Positions 1,678-17,643 of a stretch of DNA of 35,482 bases are shown here, one piece after another. The notes beneath the pieces are model-generated. The model was not told the origin of the DNA. It was given only the letters and a program-made list of their open reading frames with translations, and did not search any database. How positions within the stretch are numbered: position 1 is the stretch's first letter; the number at the start of each line of letters is the position of its first letter. The position numbers and the translations under genes were made by a program. Source of the DNA: Dichelobacter nodosus (GTDB lineage Bacteria; Pseudomonadota; Gammaproteobacteria; Cardiobacteriales; Cardiobacteriaceae); NCBI RefSeq assembly GCF_001263335.1, contig NZ_LGVW01000005.1, forward strand, positions 1 through 35,482. Direction: 5' to 3'.

Positions 1678-1703
1678 AAAGCGGTCACAAAAGTAACCGC
1701 TTT
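1678..1703 (-). terminator. Terminator of the leftward early operon
   Basis: AAAGCGGT (1678-1685) and ACCGCTTT (1696-1703) form a perfect stem with a 10-nt loop. Read on the minus strand it is followed by a T-rich tract (complement of about 1660-1680). It would stop leftward transcripts before they run into the integrase gene from its 3' side. Confidence 0.6.
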
Positions 1704-2000: not shown

Positions 2001-2408
2001 TTATGTACCATCGTTTAGCTGCGCCAAAAGCGCGTCGCGTTCTTTATTCACGAGCTGCAAACGCTCGTTTATCTGCTCAAGTTCTGCTTTATCTTCAGCG
2101 AGCTGCTCTTTGAGCGCATCGTTGCGTTCTTTGCTCGTTTCTTTGTAAAACTCGATGAGCTCTTCATAGCTTTTAATAACGCGTTCAAACGTCAAGAGTT
2201 TATGGTTTTCAAAAAATGCGCTCATTTCGGCAGGGTCGCATTTAATACCGTTAGATTCTCTCGTTCCTATCGAATCCAAGACTGCGTTTTCTGTTTCGTT
2301 AATTGCTTGTTCAATATCTGAAATGCTTTTTCTGAGCGCATATTCTTTTTTGTGCAGCCGCGTTAATTCACAGCCAATTTCAACTAAGCGTTCAACAAAT
2401 TCCGTCAT
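2001..2408 (-). CDS. Stand-alone coiled-coil protein resembling the middle of a DUF2326/ABC-3C ATPase
   Basis: A 135-residue, charged, mostly helical protein with heptad-like stretches at about residues 1-45 and 80-132. The segment around FERVIKSYEELIEFYKETSK, followed by an acidic/basic coil and ERDALLAQL, resembles by memory the coiled-coil arm of DUF2326-type ABC ATPases. No Walker A, signature or Walker B motif is present, so it cannot be an ATPase alone. The ATG is preceded by AGGTG and overlaps the stop of the upstream gene by four bases, which suggests coupled translation. It is the last gene of the leftward operon. It may be a remnant of a defence ATPase, a decoy that binds one, or an unrelated coiled coil. 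The family link needs a profile search. Confidence 0.65.
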   Translation of the reverse strand: MTEFVERLVEIGCELTRLHKKEYALRKSISDIEQAINETENAVLDSIGTRESNGIKCDPAEMSAFFENHKLLTFERVIKSYEELIEFYKETSKERNDALKEQLAEDKAELEQINERLQLVNKERDALLAQLNDGT

Positions 2409-2644
2409 TTTTTCACCTGATATATCAGTAAACCGGTTTGCTTTTGGTAAGAAACGAATCCCATCAAAAATAAGAAATGTAATGCATTGAAAAACAAATA
2501 ATGCCCGTTTTTAATTTCTTTTCGGACAAACCGGAATAAATCGTTATAAGAAATAGCGCCCTCATTTTTTAATGCGCGCAGCATGATAAAGCTCGCATAA
2601 AATACGGTTCTATCTGGGTGGTCGTGCTTACTCGGGTATAACAT
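2405..2644 (-). CDS. Small protein resembling an ABC-3C middle component (MC6-like)
   Basis: The 79-residue product begins MLYPSKHDHPDRTVFYAS and contains a predicted helical, winged-helix-like body ending in LHFLFLMGFVSYQ. The PSKHxxPDR start and the final [FL]xxMGxV segment resemble the small middle component (type 6 class) of three-component ABC ATPase conflict systems, in which a small adaptor sits between an ATPase and an effector. This is recognition from memory, not a search. A GGAG motif precedes the ATG, which overlaps the stop of the Q-like gene in TAATG. The next gene, an orphan coiled coil, overlaps it by four bases. No effector and no full ATPase are in the window. Confidence 0.6.
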   Translation of the reverse strand: MLYPSKHDHPDRTVFYASFIMLRALKNEGAISYNDLFRFVRKEIKNGHYLFFNALHFLFLMGFVSYQKQTGLLIYQVKK

Positions 2645-3000
2645 TATTCACTCCGCTGCGAACAGCTGCATAACCAACCTTCTAAAAATAAATGCCCCCG
2701 CCGGCGGTAATCTTTCACCGTGCTTTCTGATATCCCGTGCCTTTTCGCCACGGCTTTATCGTTATATTCGTTATAAAGATAACGGCTTATCAGCACGTCA
2801 TGAATGCGCTGATGATTGCCGCGTAATACCATAAGCCCTTCATTAATTTGCTCACATGCTTCATCATCTAATTCAACCGGATCATCAGCATCGCGTACCG
2901 AGCCGCGGCAAAACGCGGCGATAAAACACCGAGGGCGCGCCGGCAAAACATCTTTTCGACTCCATTTCCCCCACGCCACCAAAAGCTCTTCAATCAACAT
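2644..3000 (-). CDS. Q-type late antitermination protein
   Basis: The 118-residue product begins MLIEELLVAWGKWSRKD and carries a sigma-like helix-turn-helix at about residues 80-108 (YNDKAVAKRHGISESTVKDY). This matches the layout of the phage antitermination Q family of phages 82/21: an N-terminal LxxWGxW motif and a C-terminal DNA-binding helix pair. Q proteins load on RNA polymerase at the late promoter and allow it to pass terminators. I chose the ATG at 3000, with a GAGGTGAAG stretch upstream, over an in-frame ATG at 3021 that overlaps further into RusA. It lies in the expected place, right after the Holliday resolvase. Late-operon terminators such as 34675-34727 are natural targets. Confidence 0.75.
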   Translation of the reverse strand: MLIEELLVAWGKWSRKDVLPARPRCFIAAFCRGSVRDADDPVELDDEACEQINEGLMVLRGNHQRIHDVLISRYLYNEYNDKAVAKRHGISESTVKDYRRRGHLFLEGWLCSCSQRSE

Positions 3001-3374
3001 GGCTTCACCTCGACGACACAAAATCCAAGCTCACGTTTAACCACCGCACCGCGCACCACGCGCAAATCATCAATTTGGTTATCGTTGTGATAAACGCCGA
3101 TTTCTTGCAACACGTCTAGCAATGCTTTTAAACGATTATCGATATCAAACGAACGGCGGTTTGTCGGATATAAAGTGACCGTCATCGCTAAGCGCTGCTC
3201 TTTGCCGAACCACCGCTTATTTTTATTCGGAATTTTGCCAATCGTTTTCAAAATCACGTCGCGGCGGAAAACGCGCGCCTCATCGCTTAAATAAACATGA
3301 CTACCGCGCCGGCGGTAATAATGATTGACGCTCGGCGGCATCGGCAACAACGCTTTAAAAGTATGTACGCTCAT
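2994..3374 (-). CDS. rusA: RusA-type Holliday junction resolvase
   Basis: Dimeric endonuclease that cuts four-way junctions during phage recombination and replication. The N-terminus has the family phrase LPMPPSVNHYYRRRG, and the acidic metal site is seen in SFDIDNRLKALLDVL and YHNDNQIDDL. The protein is 126 residues, near the usual 120. I start at ATG 3374 (MSVHTFK), which has GAGGTGG upstream and lies two bases after the stop of the preceding gene. A GTG nine bases earlier is possible. It is immediately followed by the Q-like gene, the common order in lambdoid phages. Confidence 0.92.
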   Translation of the reverse strand: MSVHTFKALLPMPPSVNHYYRRRGSHVYLSDEARVFRRDVILKTIGKIPNKNKRWFGKEQRLAMTVTLYPTNRRSFDIDNRLKALLDVLQEIGVYHNDNQIDDLRVVRGAVVKRELGFCVVEVKPC

Positions 3375-3376
3375 CG

Positions 3377-3796
3377 TTACCACCTCACGCGCCAGCCAGC
3401 CGGCAGGGGTTGGACGACCAACCCCATATCAACTTGTTTTTTTGTGCGTCGCGTTCGCCCCAATAACAGCTGCTCGTATTTTGCTGAACGACAAAAATCA
3501 TTGTCGCGTGCAACAAAAGCATGAAGCACGCCGTAGCGCAGCAGCACCTTAACTTTATCGACGCCAATCTCATAAATACCGATACAAATATTTAGCTTAT
3601 CCGCATTTTTTATTTGTTTCATTGTAGTAGCGATAGCACAAACGGCTTGGTAATAAGCGGTTTGCACGTAATACGGCTCGCGCGCAATCATATATTCGAG
3701 CCGCTGTATTGCATATTGCGCAATCTCAATGCCTTGCAGCGCTAATAATTGCATGAATAATGCGCGGTACCACGCCTTTAGCATGACGACGCTCAT
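3377..3796 (-). CDS. Conserved-looking phage protein of unknown function
   Basis: A 139-residue product not assigned to a family. The first half is helical and rich in Tyr, Ile and Ala (about residues 8-60). The second half is more basic, with RTRRTKKQVDMG near residues 114-125. It has no membrane segment or catalytic motif that I can name. The start codon overlaps the antirepressor stop by four bases (ATGA) and has a GAAGGTG motif upstream. RusA follows at once, so a role in recombination or regulation is plausible but only by position. Confidence 0.7.
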   Translation of the reverse strand: MSVVMLKAWYRALFMQLLALQGIEIAQYAIQRLEYMIAREPYYVQTAYYQAVCAIATTMKQIKNADKLNICIGIYEIGVDKVKVLLRYGVLHAFVARDNDFCRSAKYEQLLLGRTRRTKKQVDMGLVVQPLPAGWRVRW

Positions 3797-13455: not shown

Positions 13456-14124
13456 ATGACAACAGAAACTATTATCAAAACTGAGAAAGATTTTTCTAAA
13501 TTTAAAGTAGTTATAACTGACGACCACGGCGCTTATCTTTACATGTCTGGCGAGGAAGATAATCGGAAAGTATGCGCGGGCAATATTAGCTATGCGATTG
13601 AGCACGAAGATAACGGTGAAATTATACGCTCGCCGTTCGATGTCACGACACGTGAAGTCACTTACTGGTCTTTCAGTAACTGCCGCGAGGGGACATATTA
13701 CGATATAACATTTGAAGATGATTTTATGCGCAAATTTTTCGGCGACGACTACAAACACGACGAAAGCACATTTCCTATACGGGACTCTTTTGAGAAGTTC
13801 GTATTAGTCGAGGTCTTCAGATTAGGTCGGGCGACTGCAAAAGAATTATATCGCTGCATTATCGAATCAGCGACAAATGATAGACCAGACGCGCGTCACG
13901 AGGAATACAGCAAACGGGTTAGAGCCGTGTCTTTGTCGCCGGAAGTTTTCGGCAAGCTGTTCAGCGACATAGCCGGCGAGGCGGCGAAGAGGGCATTTAA
14001 TGTTATTGAAGACGTAATAGATAAAGAAAGACGTATCAATTCATGGTATTTAAATTATGACTACGTCGCTATGCTTTCGCAATTCCATAAAATACTAGCA
14101 AATTACATGGAACGCAATACATAA
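13456..14124 (+). CDS. Unknown phage protein (MTTET-start gene 1)
   Basis: A 222-residue acidic product beginning MTTETIIKTEKDFSKF. The N-terminal half appears beta-rich with an acidic loop (HDGAYL-like turns, GEEDNRK), and the second half is helical (about 110-220, FVLVEVFRLGRATAKELY). No domain is recognised. AAGGGAAAG precedes the ATG. The start region, including ribosome site and first five codons, matches the next large gene (14276), as if the two had shared or exchanged 5' ends. A strong terminator follows at 14146, so it ends this transcription unit. Confidence 0.7.
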   Translation: MTTETIIKTEKDFSKFKVVITDDHGAYLYMSGEEDNRKVCAGNISYAIEHEDNGEIIRSPFDVTTREVTYWSFSNCREGTYYDITFEDDFMRKFFGDDYKHDESTFPIRDSFEKFVLVEVFRLGRATAKELYRCIIESATNDRPDARHEEYSKRVRAVSLSPEVFGKLFSDIAGEAAKRAFNVIEDVIDKERRINSWYLNYDYVAMLSQFHKILANYMERNT

Positions 14125-14145
14125 CCATCGCAAGCAAAGAACACG

Positions 14146-14169
14146 AGCCAGCCACGCGCTGGCTTTTTT
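14146..14169 (+). terminator. Terminator after the recombination genes
   Basis: AGCCAGC (14146-14152) and GCTGGCT (14158-14164) with a 5-nt loop, then six T ending at 14169. Confidence 0.85.
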
Positions 14170-14207
14170 GCGCCGTGAATTTTAGTAATAAAAACTTTTA
14201 AAAAGCG

Positions 14208-14235
14208 TTGACATTTTAAACATAATGTTTAAAAT
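14208..14235 (+). promoter_or_regulatory. Promoter with palindromic operator, copy B
   Basis: TTGACA (14208-14213) and TAAAAT (14230-14235), spacer 16. The palindrome spans 14214-14234 with perfect eight-base arms (TTTTAAAC/GTTTAAAA) around ATAAT, and its core matches copy A at 16 of 17 positions. It lies 41 bases before the gene at 14276. Confidence 0.65.
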
Positions 14236-14275
14236 ACGCACATCAAAACAAAAACGCAAAAAAAGGAAAAGCAAA

Positions 14276-15370
14276 ATGACAACAGAAACAGTTAAAAAAA
14301 CATACAAAATTGAAGACATCAAATTAGAAGCTAAACAGTACTATAGACGCGGCTATATCAAAATTGATACGCGCTCAAACGACGCGCCGAAAATTTCGAG
14401 CTTTGTGCAATTAATAAGCGTTTATTTTGCAGGCGACAGAGAATTAACAGTAATCGTTGAGTACGACGGCGACAGTGTTTTTATTAAACGGCAGGAAGAT
14501 GAGAACGTAATCAGGCATAAAATGAGCACCGCCGCGGAAGCTGAAGAATTAATCGCGATGGTTAAACAGCTCGCCATTGACACATCAAACGACATATTAA
14601 ATGAAGAACTTAGCTACCACGCTTCACATGCATTAGTCCGAATTATAGAAGGCTTCGATGAGACAACATACGTAACAGCGATTAAATTGCTCATCGCCGC
14701 GATGCCGCTCGTAACAGAAGTTTACGATTTTATGCAATCTGATGAATCTTTGCGAAGTTTCTACGATAGCGACGTTGAAGAAATGGTTGATAGCGGAAAA
14801 ATTGATTTGGAAAATGTACGAGAATTCATTAGAGTGAAAGCAGGCGAGCTTGGCTTAGAACTCTATGATTTAGATGATGATGACGTATTACTTAAAGTTA
14901 TAAGAGACGTGCTATGTGCAATACGAGACTGTGAAGATGATTATAATTTGCGTAGCCGTTATAACTCATATTTTTATTCATTGACGTATGAAGAACGTCG
15001 TGAAGCGTATAGAAAAAAAGTGATTAAAGAAACGGCGGAGCGGCGTCAAACAGCGAAACTGCTGGGTTTAACAGCGCTTAAAGGCACATTGAAGCAAAAA
15101 AAATGGGCGGAAGATATTCGTCGGAAATTTTTAGAAAACGCAAGCGCTGATGAGGACGTCTATTTATTTTTGAAATCTGCATCATGTGCGCAACATTCAA
15201 AATTTTGGATTGAAACGCGAGACATATCAACTGCAGTAAAAGAGCAAGCAATAAAAACGCTCATTGTTGCGACACGAAAAGCAAATGAAATCGGTGAGGG
15301 TAACGAAGGCTACGACGAGCAAGTAAAAATTCGCCAGGCAGCGATTGATAAATTAGGCGTAGAGATTTAA
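14276..15370 (+). CDS. Unknown phage protein with KQxxWAExIR C-terminal motif
   Basis: A 364-residue acidic product beginning MTTETVKKTYKIEDIKLEAK. Residues 1-80 look beta-rich and 90-250 helical with acidic runs (YDLDDDDVLL). The C-terminal part has LKGTLKQKKWAEDIRRKFLE, then KFWIETRDIS, a motif pair that I recall from many phage and plasmid proteins of unknown function. I start at ATG 14276, which has AAGGAAAAG upstream, rather than the in-frame ATG at 14225 that overlaps the promoter. It has its own promoter and terminator, so it can be expressed alone or as a first gene. Confidence 0.72.
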   Translation: MTTETVKKTYKIEDIKLEAKQYYRRGYIKIDTRSNDAPKISSFVQLISVYFAGDRELTVIVEYDGDSVFIKRQEDENVIRHKMSTAAEAEELIAMVKQLAIDTSNDILNEELSYHASHALVRIIEGFDETTYVTAIKLLIAAMPLVTEVYDFMQSDESLRSFYDSDVEEMVDSGKIDLENVREFIRVKAGELGLELYDLDDDDVLLKVIRDVLCAIRDCEDDYNLRSRYNSYFYSLTYEERREAYRKKVIKETAERRQTAKLLGLTALKGTLKQKKWAEDIRRKFLENASADEDVYLFLKSASCAQHSKFWIETRDISTAVKEQAIKTLIVATRKANEIGEGNEGYDEQVKIRQAAIDKLGVEI

Positions 15371-15378
15371 GAATGACT

Positions 15379-15401
15379 AAAGCCGCCTGTGCGGCGGCTT
15401 T
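15379..15401 (+). terminator. Hairpin, weak terminator
   Basis: AAAGCCGCC (15379-15387) and GGCGGCTTT (15393-15401) form a perfect 9-bp stem, but only three T follow. It may attenuate rather than stop transcription into the helicase gene. Confidence 0.5.
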
Positions 15402-15418
15402 ATAACAATGGTGACGGA

Positions 15419-17032
15419 ATGAATTTACGAAGCTATCAGCAGTCAATCTTTGACAAAGTAATTAATTCAAGCGATGACGATTTAGTTCAATTAGACACTG
15501 GCGCCGGCAAAACGCCAATAATTGCGAAGCTCGCAGAATATTATGAGCACGCCGCGATTATTTGCCATCGCAATATCTTAATAAAACAAGCGAGCGAAAA
15601 GCTCGCAATGTGCGGATTAGAGCACCGCATCATCGGCGCGAATAGTACTAAAAAAATATGCGCACGAAACAACGTTGCAAAAGTAGGCAGGCATTTTATT
15701 AATCCGGCGGCGAGCATTTATCTTGTATCGATTGATACGATTAACAGCAGAATAAAGCGCGGCGGCAAAGGGTTAGATGACAACACAAAGATAATATTAA
15801 TTGATGAAGCGCACCACGTCGCTGAGGATAACAAATGGTTTTATATCGCTGACAGTTTAAATGTGCGTTGCGTTGGTTTTACCGCGACGCCGTGCCGCGG
15901 CGACGGGCAGCCGATGCTCAAACAGTACGGCGGTTTTTTTGACAAAATCATACAGGCAGAAGGGTATGAGGAAAATGGTACTGAACGATTAATTGCCGAG
16001 GGATATTTAGCGCAATATCGATGCATCTATTACAAAATAGAAGACCGTGAAGTGATTTATGATAATGGCGTTGACATAGAAATATGGGTCGGCGACGCTG
16101 ACATAGAAGCAGGAGACCGCGGCGCCGAAATAATCGACGTCGCGCGGAAATATTGCAAGAAAAAACAAACAATACTTATTGAGCCGAGAATTGATAACGC
16201 AATTTATTCAGTAGATGAGCTCGCAAAAGCAGGATATTCTTCCGCGGTTATTCATAGCAAAATGCCGCAGTACGATATCGAAAAAATATTAGATGAATTT
16301 GATAATAAGAACGTTCAAATTTTAGTCGCGGTTGATATGATTAATGAAGGTTTCGACGTGCCAGATGCTGACGTACTGATTATTAACAGAAAAGTAAATA
16401 GTTTCGGGCTATATCGTCAGCTGTGTGGGCGTGTGCTTAGACCGCGCGAAAATAAGCAAGCGCTGATTATTGACGTTTGCGGTCACGCCGTCGCTCAGCA
16501 CGGCTTGCCATCTGACAATGTTGATTGGAATAAAAAACAGGGCGAAATCCGCCGCCGCGATTTAACTATTTGCTGCTATTGCGACACATTTTTCAAAGCA
16601 ACGTTGACGCATTGCCCGTATTGTGGTGAATTCAATGATTTATCAATGCGGCACGAGGGGCGCGGCGAGGGTATCGAACTATTTTTTTACACTGCGAAAG
16701 AGGTTGAGCTCGAGCGCAAAAAAATCGCAGCGCGAGAGCAACAGAAATTAATAGAAGAACAAGAGCGCAAAGAAGCAGAACGCGCGCGTAAAGAATACTT
16801 TAATTTTTCACCAAAATTTGATGACTCGCTTGTAGGCAGGCGCTGCGCGCAATTGTATTGTTTGTTGCAAACAGAACTACGCAAGCAACTAACACCGGAA
16901 CAATATAATAACTTTTATAAAAATAATGATTATGTTTTGCAAAGCGAGAGCTTTTATATAAAAAGCATGCCGCGCAATTTTGAAAATAATCCGGCTGCGG
17001 TTGCCGCGAAAATATACGGGGCACATAAATGA
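15419..17032 (+). CDS. SF2 (DEAH-type) helicase with zinc-finger and coiled-coil tail
   Basis: A 537-residue ATP-dependent DNA or RNA helicase. N-terminal RecA-like domain: RSYQQSIFDKV Q-like motif, Walker A DTGAGKTP near residue 27, DEAHH near 131, FTATPCRGDG near 154. Second RecA-like domain: VAVDMINEGFDVPDADVLI, and motif VI QLCGRVLRPRE near 334. A four-Cys finger (CCYC, CPYC at about 385-405) and a Glu/Arg-rich coil follow, then a helical end. I start at ATG 15419, where GGTGACGG precedes it. Its stop overlaps the methyltransferase start in ATGA. Phages often pair such a helicase with replication or modification genes, and the substrate is unknown. Confidence 0.9.
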   Translation: MNLRSYQQSIFDKVINSSDDDLVQLDTGAGKTPIIAKLAEYYEHAAIICHRNILIKQASEKLAMCGLEHRIIGANSTKKICARNNVAKVGRHFINPAASIYLVSIDTINSRIKRGGKGLDDNTKIILIDEAHHVAEDNKWFYIADSLNVRCVGFTATPCRGDGQPMLKQYGGFFDKIIQAEGYEENGTERLIAEGYLAQYRCIYYKIEDREVIYDNGVDIEIWVGDADIEAGDRGAEIIDVARKYCKKKQTILIEPRIDNAIYSVDELAKAGYSSAVIHSKMPQYDIEKILDEFDNKNVQILVAVDMINEGFDVPDADVLIINRKVNSFGLYRQLCGRVLRPRENKQALIIDVCGHAVAQHGLPSDNVDWNKKQGEIRRRDLTICCYCDTFFKATLTHCPYCGEFNDLSMRHEGRGEGIELFFYTAKEVELERKKIAAREQQKLIEEQERKEAERARKEYFNFSPKFDDSLVGRRCAQLYCLLQTELRKQLTPEQYNNFYKNNDYVLQSESFYIKSMPRNFENNPAAVAAKIYGAHK

Positions 17033-17643
17033 TAACATTAATCAATGATAAATCAGAAAACCGCGGCGGCAGCTTTGAGATGATTTTCACTGACCCGCCG
17101 TTTGATATGGGCGCAGGCAAGTTGCATAAAATTTTAAGCAACTATCAGTTTGAGCATCTAGTGTTAATAGCATCAATGCGTCAAGTGTTAGAACTTTATC
17201 CAAAATTAGATATGGATTTTTGTTTTGATTTAGTCGCAAATAGAAGTAAACCGAAAGAATCAAGAAGCTATGCGATGCCGCATTATCTACATAACAACAT
17301 TTTTTATTTTAAAAAACACGGCGTTAAATCAGCGTTTGATAGACGACTAGTTGCGCGCGCGGATCAATATAGCGACACTAAAACGCATTATTATCCGACG
17401 TTTTTTGATGCGCCGAAACGCGATATTGTTTACAGATATCAGAAAAATCAGCAAATGATTGATGACATCATCGGCGCGTTCAATGTATCAACAGTTTGCG
17501 ATATGTTTGCCGGCAGCGGAACAACGGGCTTAGCATGCGTTAAGCATGAAAAAGACTGCACGTTAATCGAAGCAGAAACAGAACCATTTAATATTATGAA
17601 GCAGCAACTTGATTTTTTGCAGGTAAAATATGAAGTACTTTAA
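17029..17643 (+). CDS. Beta-class DNA methyltransferase (N4-cytosine or N6-adenine)
   Basis: The 204-residue product has the permuted motif order of the beta class: the catalytic motif TDPPFDMGAG at about residues 20-29 comes first, and the AdoMet-binding motif DMFAGSGTTGLACV near 158-171 comes last. The target-recognition region between them is short. No restriction enzyme gene is adjacent, so it is likely an orphan phage enzyme that protects DNA or controls genes. It is translationally coupled to the helicase upstream (four-base overlap). The next gene overlaps its end by 14 bases. I cannot tell the methylated base or site from the sequence. Confidence 0.88.
   Translation: MITLINDKSENRGGSFEMIFTDPPFDMGAGKLHKILSNYQFEHLVLIASMRQVLELYPKLDMDFCFDLVANRSKPKESRSYAMPHYLHNNIFYFKKHGVKSAFDRRLVARADQYSDTKTHYYPTFFDAPKRDIVYRYQKNQQMIDDIIGAFNVSTVCDMFAGSGTTGLACVKHEKDCTLIEAETEPFNIMKQQLDFLQVKYEVL

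Follow-up and report, generated by a model that had tools for sequence, protein, structure and literature searches.

The last two genes of a prophage operon in Dichelobacter nodosus encode an orphan middle component and an orphan coiled coil, and their sequences establish that this cassette originated from an MC8-type ABC-3C system of the Lamassu superfamily. Our preferred reading, to which we give somewhat less than an even chance, is that the pair may serve counter-defence, its two products forming a decoy sub-complex, a mechanism that we infer. The window, i.e. the whole stretch of 35,482 nucleotides that was analysed, is contig C5 of a 1.45-Mb assembly in 36 contigs and is present in IMG/VR as IMGVR_UViG_2654587739_000001.

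The minus-strand prophage operon ends with the genes for RusA (2994-3383), a Q-like antitermination protein (2644-3021; phrog_79, E 4.1e-14), a 79-residue protein of the MC8 family (2405-2644) and a 135-residue coiled coil lacking an ATPase head (2001-2408), in that order. The integrase gene (292-1503) faces this operon, and between the cassette and the convergent integrase gene lies a candidate terminator-like hairpin (1678-1703, minus strand), which is a consensus match only. The stop codon of the Q-like gene overlaps the MC8 start in a TAATG junction, and the MC8 stop overlaps the start of the coil gene in the 4-nt sequence ATGA (2405-2408). Both starts are preceded on the minus strand by Shine-Dalgarno-like sequences, GGAG at 2651-2654 ending 6 nt upstream of the MC8 gene and AGGTGA at 2413-2418 ending 4 nt upstream of the coil gene. 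The overlap and these two sites bear out the translational coupling of the genes that an earlier sequence-only reading had proposed, and the Q-like gene upstream agrees with its placing of the pair in the slot after Q. Coupling of the middle component to the next gene is a feature of complete ABC-3C systems that the window pair has too, and in a complete locus of the same genome the ATPase start likewise overlaps the MC8 stop by 4 nt.

The 79-residue protein scored above the Pfam gathering threshold for MC8 (PF20295; E 3.7e-23, 81.8 bits against 25) and also for MC6 (E 1.9e-7, 31.4 bits against 27.2). With this profile match its earlier assignment as an ABC-3C middle component stands. The AF2 model (pLDDT 91.6) has the secondary-structure order H-E-H-H-E-E and matches winged-helix structures (best Z 10.5, rmsd 3.3, 76 residues aligned), so that the protein is predicted to be a winged helix. 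By sequence a weak match was found to PDB 1tbx (E 0.0055), which we take to be the winged-helix protein F93 of SSV1; in the INPHARED phage collection, SSV1 ORF F-93 matched the window protein with E 0.3. Of 26 MC8 columns that are near-invariant (at least 85% of 37 rows) the window protein keeps 19 and loses 7, including D71 and E74 of the wing. The N-terminal motif PxKHxHPDxT is kept.

Searching the genome with both window proteins gave one further place for each, side by side on contig C16. The locus found there (L003 4436-7435) encodes a CTD12 effector (7e-40), an MC8 protein (3.1e-19) that is 53% identical to that of the window, and an intact 593-residue ATPase matching the PADLOC models PDC-M68B (1.3e-47) and LmuB (2.4e-14). 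Its effector gene carries an in-frame premature stop near the start; the MC8 and ATPase genes are intact. Mobilization genes (MobC/NikA-like) share the stretch with this locus, and a search for near-identical DNA between L003 1-14000 and plasmids found nothing. Two plasmids that carry this protein family have the order ABC-3C protein, MC8, DUF2326-annotated ATPase, and in a third plasmid an MC8 match and an ATPase lie at the start of the record, which covers the locus from there on.

The model of the host ATPase gave as its best structural match chain A of 9a6c (YydD-YydB; Z 34.9, rmsd 15.3, 556 residues aligned), in which YydD presumably comes from B. subtilis, followed by the Lamassu LmuB structures 9uxh, 9hqx, 9hqu and 9nyg (Z 23.6-25.7). 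Sequence searches of the PDB with ATPase, MC8 and coil profiles yielded no convincing relative, only unrelated coils and chance matches. In the Walker B region of MC8-type ATPases (host residues 523-534) a 51-row alignment has an invariant D527-G528. ABC ATPases usually carry the catalytic glutamate at that Walker B position. In MC8-type ATPases a glycine appears to replace it, which would fit the slow ATP hydrolysis proposed for Lamassu in the excerpted text of PMC10586767.

The 135-residue protein had no Pfam match above the curated cut-off. It aligned to residues 261-367 of the host ATPase with E 6e-23 in a pairwise comparison and E 1.2e-15 genome-wide, and at 42-46% identity this ATPase is its nearest match found. 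Weak matches in the same register were obtained with PDC-M68B (E 3.5e-4) and phrog_5467 (E 1.5e-4), and the LmuB model matched the window coil only weakly (E 0.015, compared with 2.4e-14 for the host ATPase). Chance coiled-coil similarity was considered and rejected on the basis of the E-values, the register common to the host ATPase, PDC-M68B and phrog_5467, and the gene position. To judge from these comparisons the homology of the pair is beyond chance, and the first observation is real. The sequence-only reading had taken the protein for just the coiled-coil arm of a DUF2326-type ATPase. Neither of the outcomes by which that reading would have been refuted, no profile hit for either protein or intact ATPase homologues unmatched by the coil segment, was obtained. 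The arm-only part of the description holds, while the DUF2326 label was not confirmed by Pfam: DUF2326 is absent among the 25 Pfam matches listed for the coil (to E 2.9). Since the full host ATPase likewise has no DUF2326 match up to E 0.01, little weight attaches to this Pfam test, and the plasmid homologues at the same gene position are annotated as 'DUF2326 domain-containing protein'.

In the alignment the coil protein covers about residues 258-378 of the 593 in the host ATPase, which places its homology in the distal arm of MC8-type ATPases, and it has a 14-residue insert near the hairpin tip. Because its start occupies the position of the ATPase start at the MC8 stop, the coil gene looks like an in-frame-deleted ATPase gene, from which codons 2 to about 258 and everything past about 378 would have been lost. 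In other full loci the ATPase frame, taken as the longest frame, begins at or near the MC8 stop.

Neither of the other components was found at the window locus. Upstream of the MC8 gene, where the Q-like gene stands, there is no effector gene with a C-terminal docking domain, and matches of the host CTD12 region to the window did not rise above chance (E 2.2 and 7.7). Downstream there is no ATPase gene with P-loop and Walker B, only the coil. A search of the window with 87 full ATPases gave matches to the coil region at E ≤ 1 for 14 of them and no convincing ATPase homology elsewhere in the window (best other match E 0.029). Both head lobes and the effector are therefore missing in the window searches, as the lack of ATPase motifs and effector next to the pair had suggested. 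The possibility that the coil gene is a mis-called fragment of an intact ATPase gene was also rejected, as no ATPase sequence flanks the coil.

Modelled with AF2 (pLDDT 84.8), the host ATPase shows arm helices at residues 192-215, 223-250, 258-295, 302-311, 317-374 and 378-440. From these boundaries the retained piece is predicted to be the outermost hairpin of the arm, lying between helix breaks that sit in lower-confidence parts of the model (pLDDT blocks of 52-77 at 251-260, 291-330 and 371-380). This outer hairpin is about three times richer in conserved positions than the remaining arm: positions conserved in at least 90% of 51 ATPases account for 29 of 121 in the retained piece versus 10 of 128 in the rest (Fisher p 4.6e-4). 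In 58 non-redundant pairs, co-variation between MC8 and ATPase was not concentrated in the distal arm, which accounts for 13 of the 50 top-ranking pairs and for 74 of the 341 columns.

In a tree built on 39 pairs of MC8 and coil sequences, with unsettled bootstrap, the window pair is sister to the host C16 pair (88/83), within starred clades that contain viral contig L012 and systems from Psychrobacter and Pelistega. The end branch of the window pair is 1.88 versus 0.20 for the host pair. Among 87 full ATPases, 23 coil positions reach a conservation of 95% or more; the window coil departs from 11 of them, yet it contains no stop. Under a neutral model, which assumes that the changes came after truncation and is based on one genome, a stop-free coil segment would have a probability of about 0.2-0.7% and a stop-free pair one of 0.003-0.03%. 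The coil has also maintained its hydrophobic pattern, with 28 of 33 hydrophobic columns kept and 3 of 41 polar columns turned hydrophobic. Open reading frames despite such heavy divergence argue against decay, and maintenance of the pair by selection is supported.

Searches with the coil brought up a second cassette of this type in genome G672, which belongs to another class of the same phylum. Its MC8-like protein of 77 residues reaches 25.1 bits with Pfam MC8 (threshold 25) and 26.2 bits with MC6 (7.8e-6; under the cut-off of 27.2), and its coil of 109 residues matches PDC-M68B (9.2e-10, register 267-361) and phrog_5467 (8e-9). The two genes overlap by 4 nt and are present without effector or ATPase. 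They lie in a contractile-tailed prophage with genes for head protease, major head, tail sheath, tape measure and baseplate proteins, predicted as IMGVR_UViG_2833052049_000001. The G672 pair is 24-25% identical to the window pair, and its coil lacks the 14-residue insert. Direct repeats of 66 nt, 781 nt apart and 91% identical, flank the cassette, the coil stop lying within the second repeat. The GC content of the cassette genes is 30% and 26%, that of the nearby IetA-like and D12 genes 28% and 30%, and that of two tail genes, the Dcm gene and the phrog_3108 gene 43-47%. The G672-type cassette occurred in 1 of 9 genomes of its genus, and a full MC8-type ATPase was not found in the G672 genome.

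The G672 pair was placed elsewhere in the tree, on a branch of 4.46. Both orphan pairs were flagged as long branches and that of G672 for its letter make-up too, and a single clade for both orphans was not rejected (p-AU 0.34), so we do not claim separate origins. Six MC8 positions (R3, R29, P53, L63, D71 and E74) are lost in both orphans, with 7 lost in the window and 13 in G672 out of 26 (p 0.037). These joint losses are suggestive and could reflect lost surfaces that faced the missing head or effector. For the coil there was no excess of joint losses (7 in common; 19 and 15 lost of 34).

The cargo zone of the G672 prophage (L126 6972-11458) holds an IetA-like ATPase, two methyltransferases and the MC8 and coil genes in one stretch. 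The neighbours comprise an IetA-like AAA protein (4.4e-69, covering positions 66-316 of the 374 of the profile), a Dcm-type methyltransferase (2.3e-81), a D12 methyltransferase (2.5e-35) and a phrog_3108 protein, the latter with 172 residues (3.3e-26) and encoded at L126 10133-10651 between the cassette and the D12 gene. A subtilase is the expected partner of IetA. A search for subtilase in the G672 genome gave 0 matches, and no nuclease partner was recognised beside the methyltransferases among the ORFs listed, part of which were searched. With no subtilase, no recognised nuclease and no motor, several candidate defence components stand together without effectors, and the zone is a possible cluster of disarmed defence parts.

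The arm-only form is rare. Scans with the MC8 alignment covered 11 viral loci and the best 80 of 143 genome loci, together 91 loci, with some organisms apparently represented in both. The downstream ORF has at least 592 codons in 86 of these 91, compared with 135 at the window locus, which is the only one among them with the arm-tip form. At loci L030, L032, L039 and L094 the downstream ORF is shorter but still includes the N-terminal P-loop motif; that of L094 is cut by the contig end. When whole genomes were searched with the coil or a coil profile, the family yielded 1 genome with a match out of 12, the order 1 out of 32, the class 8 out of 369 and the phylum 8 out of 398. Such searches around G672 matched 4 of 150 genomes of its family and 8 of 318 of its class; with the G672 coil as the only query, 2 of the 9 genomes from its genus gave a match, one of these at 24% and within a 570-residue frame. 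These samples overlap; across all of them, only two coil matches occurred in frames below 200 residues, those of the window and of G672:C1. With the Pfam MC8 model as query, the class gave matches in 4 of 369 genomes, including a marginal one in G162 (26 bits) within a 389-residue frame. Loci L030, L032, L039 and L108 were considered as further cassettes and rejected, the head end being kept or the gene broken. L108 (genome G112) has a 288-residue ORF with the reverse truncation, beside another ORF; we take the first to be the outer arm and C-terminal head of an ABC-3C-like ATPase, and its neighbour to be nitrilase-like.

Among 13 distinct viral contigs with MC8 or coil, 2 have the orphan form and 11 a full-length ATPase. 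The pair without an ATPase, the frequency of which in other prophages the sequence-only reading had proposed to survey, thus recurs in the G672 prophage, which brings its count to 2 of the 13 viral contigs. Viral scans with single window proteins returned the window's own contig only, and a scan with the G672 MC8 protein likewise returned its own only. INPHARED phages contained no convincing relative of the window proteins, the host ATPase or the G672 pair (best listed, a Microbacterium phage protein with E 0.04). For positions 10500-35400 of the window, a search for near-identical DNA gave only an 85-base match over an SSB gene.

Other genes of the window were also inspected. On the plus strand, 8950-10383 encodes a 477-residue protein with DUF4041 (2.5e-18) and T5orf172/MUG113 nuclease domains that matches PADLOC PD-Lambda-1 over nearly its full length (1e-140). 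We take PD-Lambda-1 to be SNIPE. In the excerpted text of PMC12904381, SNIPE consists of DUF4041 and a nuclease, attaches to the tape-measure protein of the phage and cleaves injected DNA. The gene at 8950-10383 is therefore probably a prophage-carried superinfection defence. At 15389-17643 (plus strand) a ResIII/DEAD-type helicase is followed by a short N6_N4-type methyltransferase, and by their domains these genes resemble restriction-modification or anti-restriction genes. Two adjacent proteins of 222 and 381 residues, encoded at 13456-15370 (plus strand), had no Pfam, PHROGs or PADLOC match at E 0.01.

As a decoy, the window MC8 protein and the arm tip would form a sub-complex that occupies binding surfaces of a host ABC-3C complex, whether arm-arm, arm-MC8 or the effector docking site. 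Mixed complexes would then be unable to assemble or fire, and the infected cell would consequently not be shut down. Such a dominant-negative decoy could be directed at ABC-3C systems of the host or of rival mobile elements. According to the excerpted text of PMC10586767, the Lamassu effector, middle component and SMC-like protein presumably assemble into a ternary complex, and every component was essential wherever tested, which makes a partial copy a plausible dominant negative. The homology and position of both proteins (MC8 at 3.7e-23, coil on host residues 261-367, the same 4-nt overlap) argue for the decoy, as does the presence of a possible cognate target in the genome, the full locus on contig C16 whose pair is the sister of the window pair. 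It is further consistent with the retention of a conserved distal hairpin between predicted helix breaks, with the signs that the pair is not decaying freely (no stop despite 11 of 23 losses, hydrophobic pattern kept), and with recurrence in a prophage of another class, near methyltransferases and an IetA-like ATPase. Several observations count against it. Owing to the in-frame stop in its effector gene the host system may already be dead, leaving nothing to jam. The window coil has lost near-invariant ATPase residues, possibly contact residues, and co-variation did not single out the distal arm. The G672 genome yielded no full MC8-type ATPase, with the cassette in 1 of 9 genomes of the genus. 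Each orphan form was seen in one genome only, the timing behind the neutral model is an assumption made on one genome, and the helix breaks behind the hairpin point lie in lower-confidence parts of the model.

The sequence-only reading had offered two explanations, a stripped remnant of a defence system or a decoy. A plain remnant is now the less likely of the two in view of the open frames, the kept hydrophobic pattern, the boundaries at predicted helix breaks and the second, unrelated prophage, and the decoy fits. For the pair to be a degenerate remnant, the prophage would once have carried a whole ABC-3C system that deletions reduced to MC8 and an internal part of the ATPase gene, and the frames would still be open only for want of time. 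Such a history would agree with the full-length ATPase in 11 of 13 distinct viral contigs, with the occurrence of broken ATPases (L030, L032, L039 and the head-truncated L108), with the near-invariant residues lost in the window coil and with the broken effector gene that the resident full locus also has. We nevertheless consider it unlikely: despite a large divergence (end branch 1.88) the frames contain neither a stop nor a frameshift, and the pair has preserved its hydrophobic pattern, start codon, ribosome site and gene overlap; no leftover ATPase sequence was found beside the coil; in the four other short ORFs of the 91-locus set the N-terminal P-loop end is still present, unlike in the window; and the two-piece form recurs in the unrelated G672 prophage.

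Two functional alternatives appear less probable still. The pair could be a trans-acting adaptor that joins and re-tunes the host ABC-3C system, for example against competing phages, to the benefit of the prophage. A cognate ATPase in the same genome, the superinfection-type defence gene PD-Lambda-1/SNIPE (1e-140) on the same prophage and the PxKHxHPDxT motif kept in the window MC8 would suit such a helper, but we regard it as improbable, given the interruption in the host effector gene, the lack in G672 of a full MC8-type ATPase that could be helped, and the changes in the window coil at positions that do not vary among full ATPases. Slightly more doubtful again is re-use outside defence, in which the winged helix and its coil partner would act as a regulator of the phage, for instance controlling late transcription beside Q. 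The modelled winged-helix fold, the position of the MC8 gene directly after Q and the weak match to PDB 1tbx (E 0.0055) point in this direction. However, the G672 copy lies in a cargo zone among methyltransferases and not beside Q, and is AT-rich with flanking repeats of its own, and in the excerpted text of PMC10586767 the middle component of known three-component systems is presumed to be part of a ternary protein complex.

The decoy reading can be extended to a broader one, which we consider possible though rather doubtful: the pair may represent a recurrent prophage anti-ABC-3C (anti-Lamassu-superfamily) cassette made from the system's own machine parts, and some cargo zones, as in G672, may consist of 'disarmed' defence components that shield the phage. 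Methyltransferases without nucleases, IetA without IetS and MC8 with the arm but lacking motor and effector would then jam or satisfy several defence systems at once. The orphan pair is present in two prophages in all, and close neighbours that would suit counter-defence (Dcm, D12 and IetA-like) are present only in G672. If the decoy reading is correct, the cassette would inhibit an ABC-3C/Lamassu-type system with proteins built from that very system, the distal arm and the middle component would be marked as a functional unit that is directly testable, and a search rule would follow, namely to look for prophage defence components without their effectors.

No cassettes of an orphan middle component and arm were found among the titles and abstract openings of the open-licence papers listed. 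In the table of a 2026 review (PMC12904381, excerpt), Lamassu has a '-' (unknown) in the column in which other systems have entries that appear to be their phage inhibitors. A close counterpart is the G672 cassette, which likewise has an MC8-like protein and an arm-tip coil with a 4-nt overlap and no effector or ATPase, but differs from that of the window by its 24-25% identity, by a coil that ends in a direct repeat and by the lack of the 14-residue insert. Compared with ABC-3C systems with MC8 (Pfam MC8 and CTD12; PADLOC PDC-M68), the window has the same MC8, coil register, gene order and 4-nt overlap, whereas effector, P-loop and Walker B half are missing and only adaptor and arm tip are left. 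YydD (9a6c) and LmuB (9uxh, 9hqx, 9hqu, 9nyg) are complete coiled-coil ABC ATPases, while the window coil corresponds to the outer arm only. The principle of decoys built from defence parts is already known, as the excerpted text of PMC11656645 describes dominant-negative anti-CRISPRs that derive from or mimic Cas components (AcrIF3, a phage Cas9 with inactive RuvC, and RNA anti-CRISPRs) and states that very few Acrs are derived from Cas proteins. By analogy, the window cassette would resemble these in being a defence part held by a phage that forms a non-productive complex, although the defence system is another one and the inhibition is one that we infer for the window.
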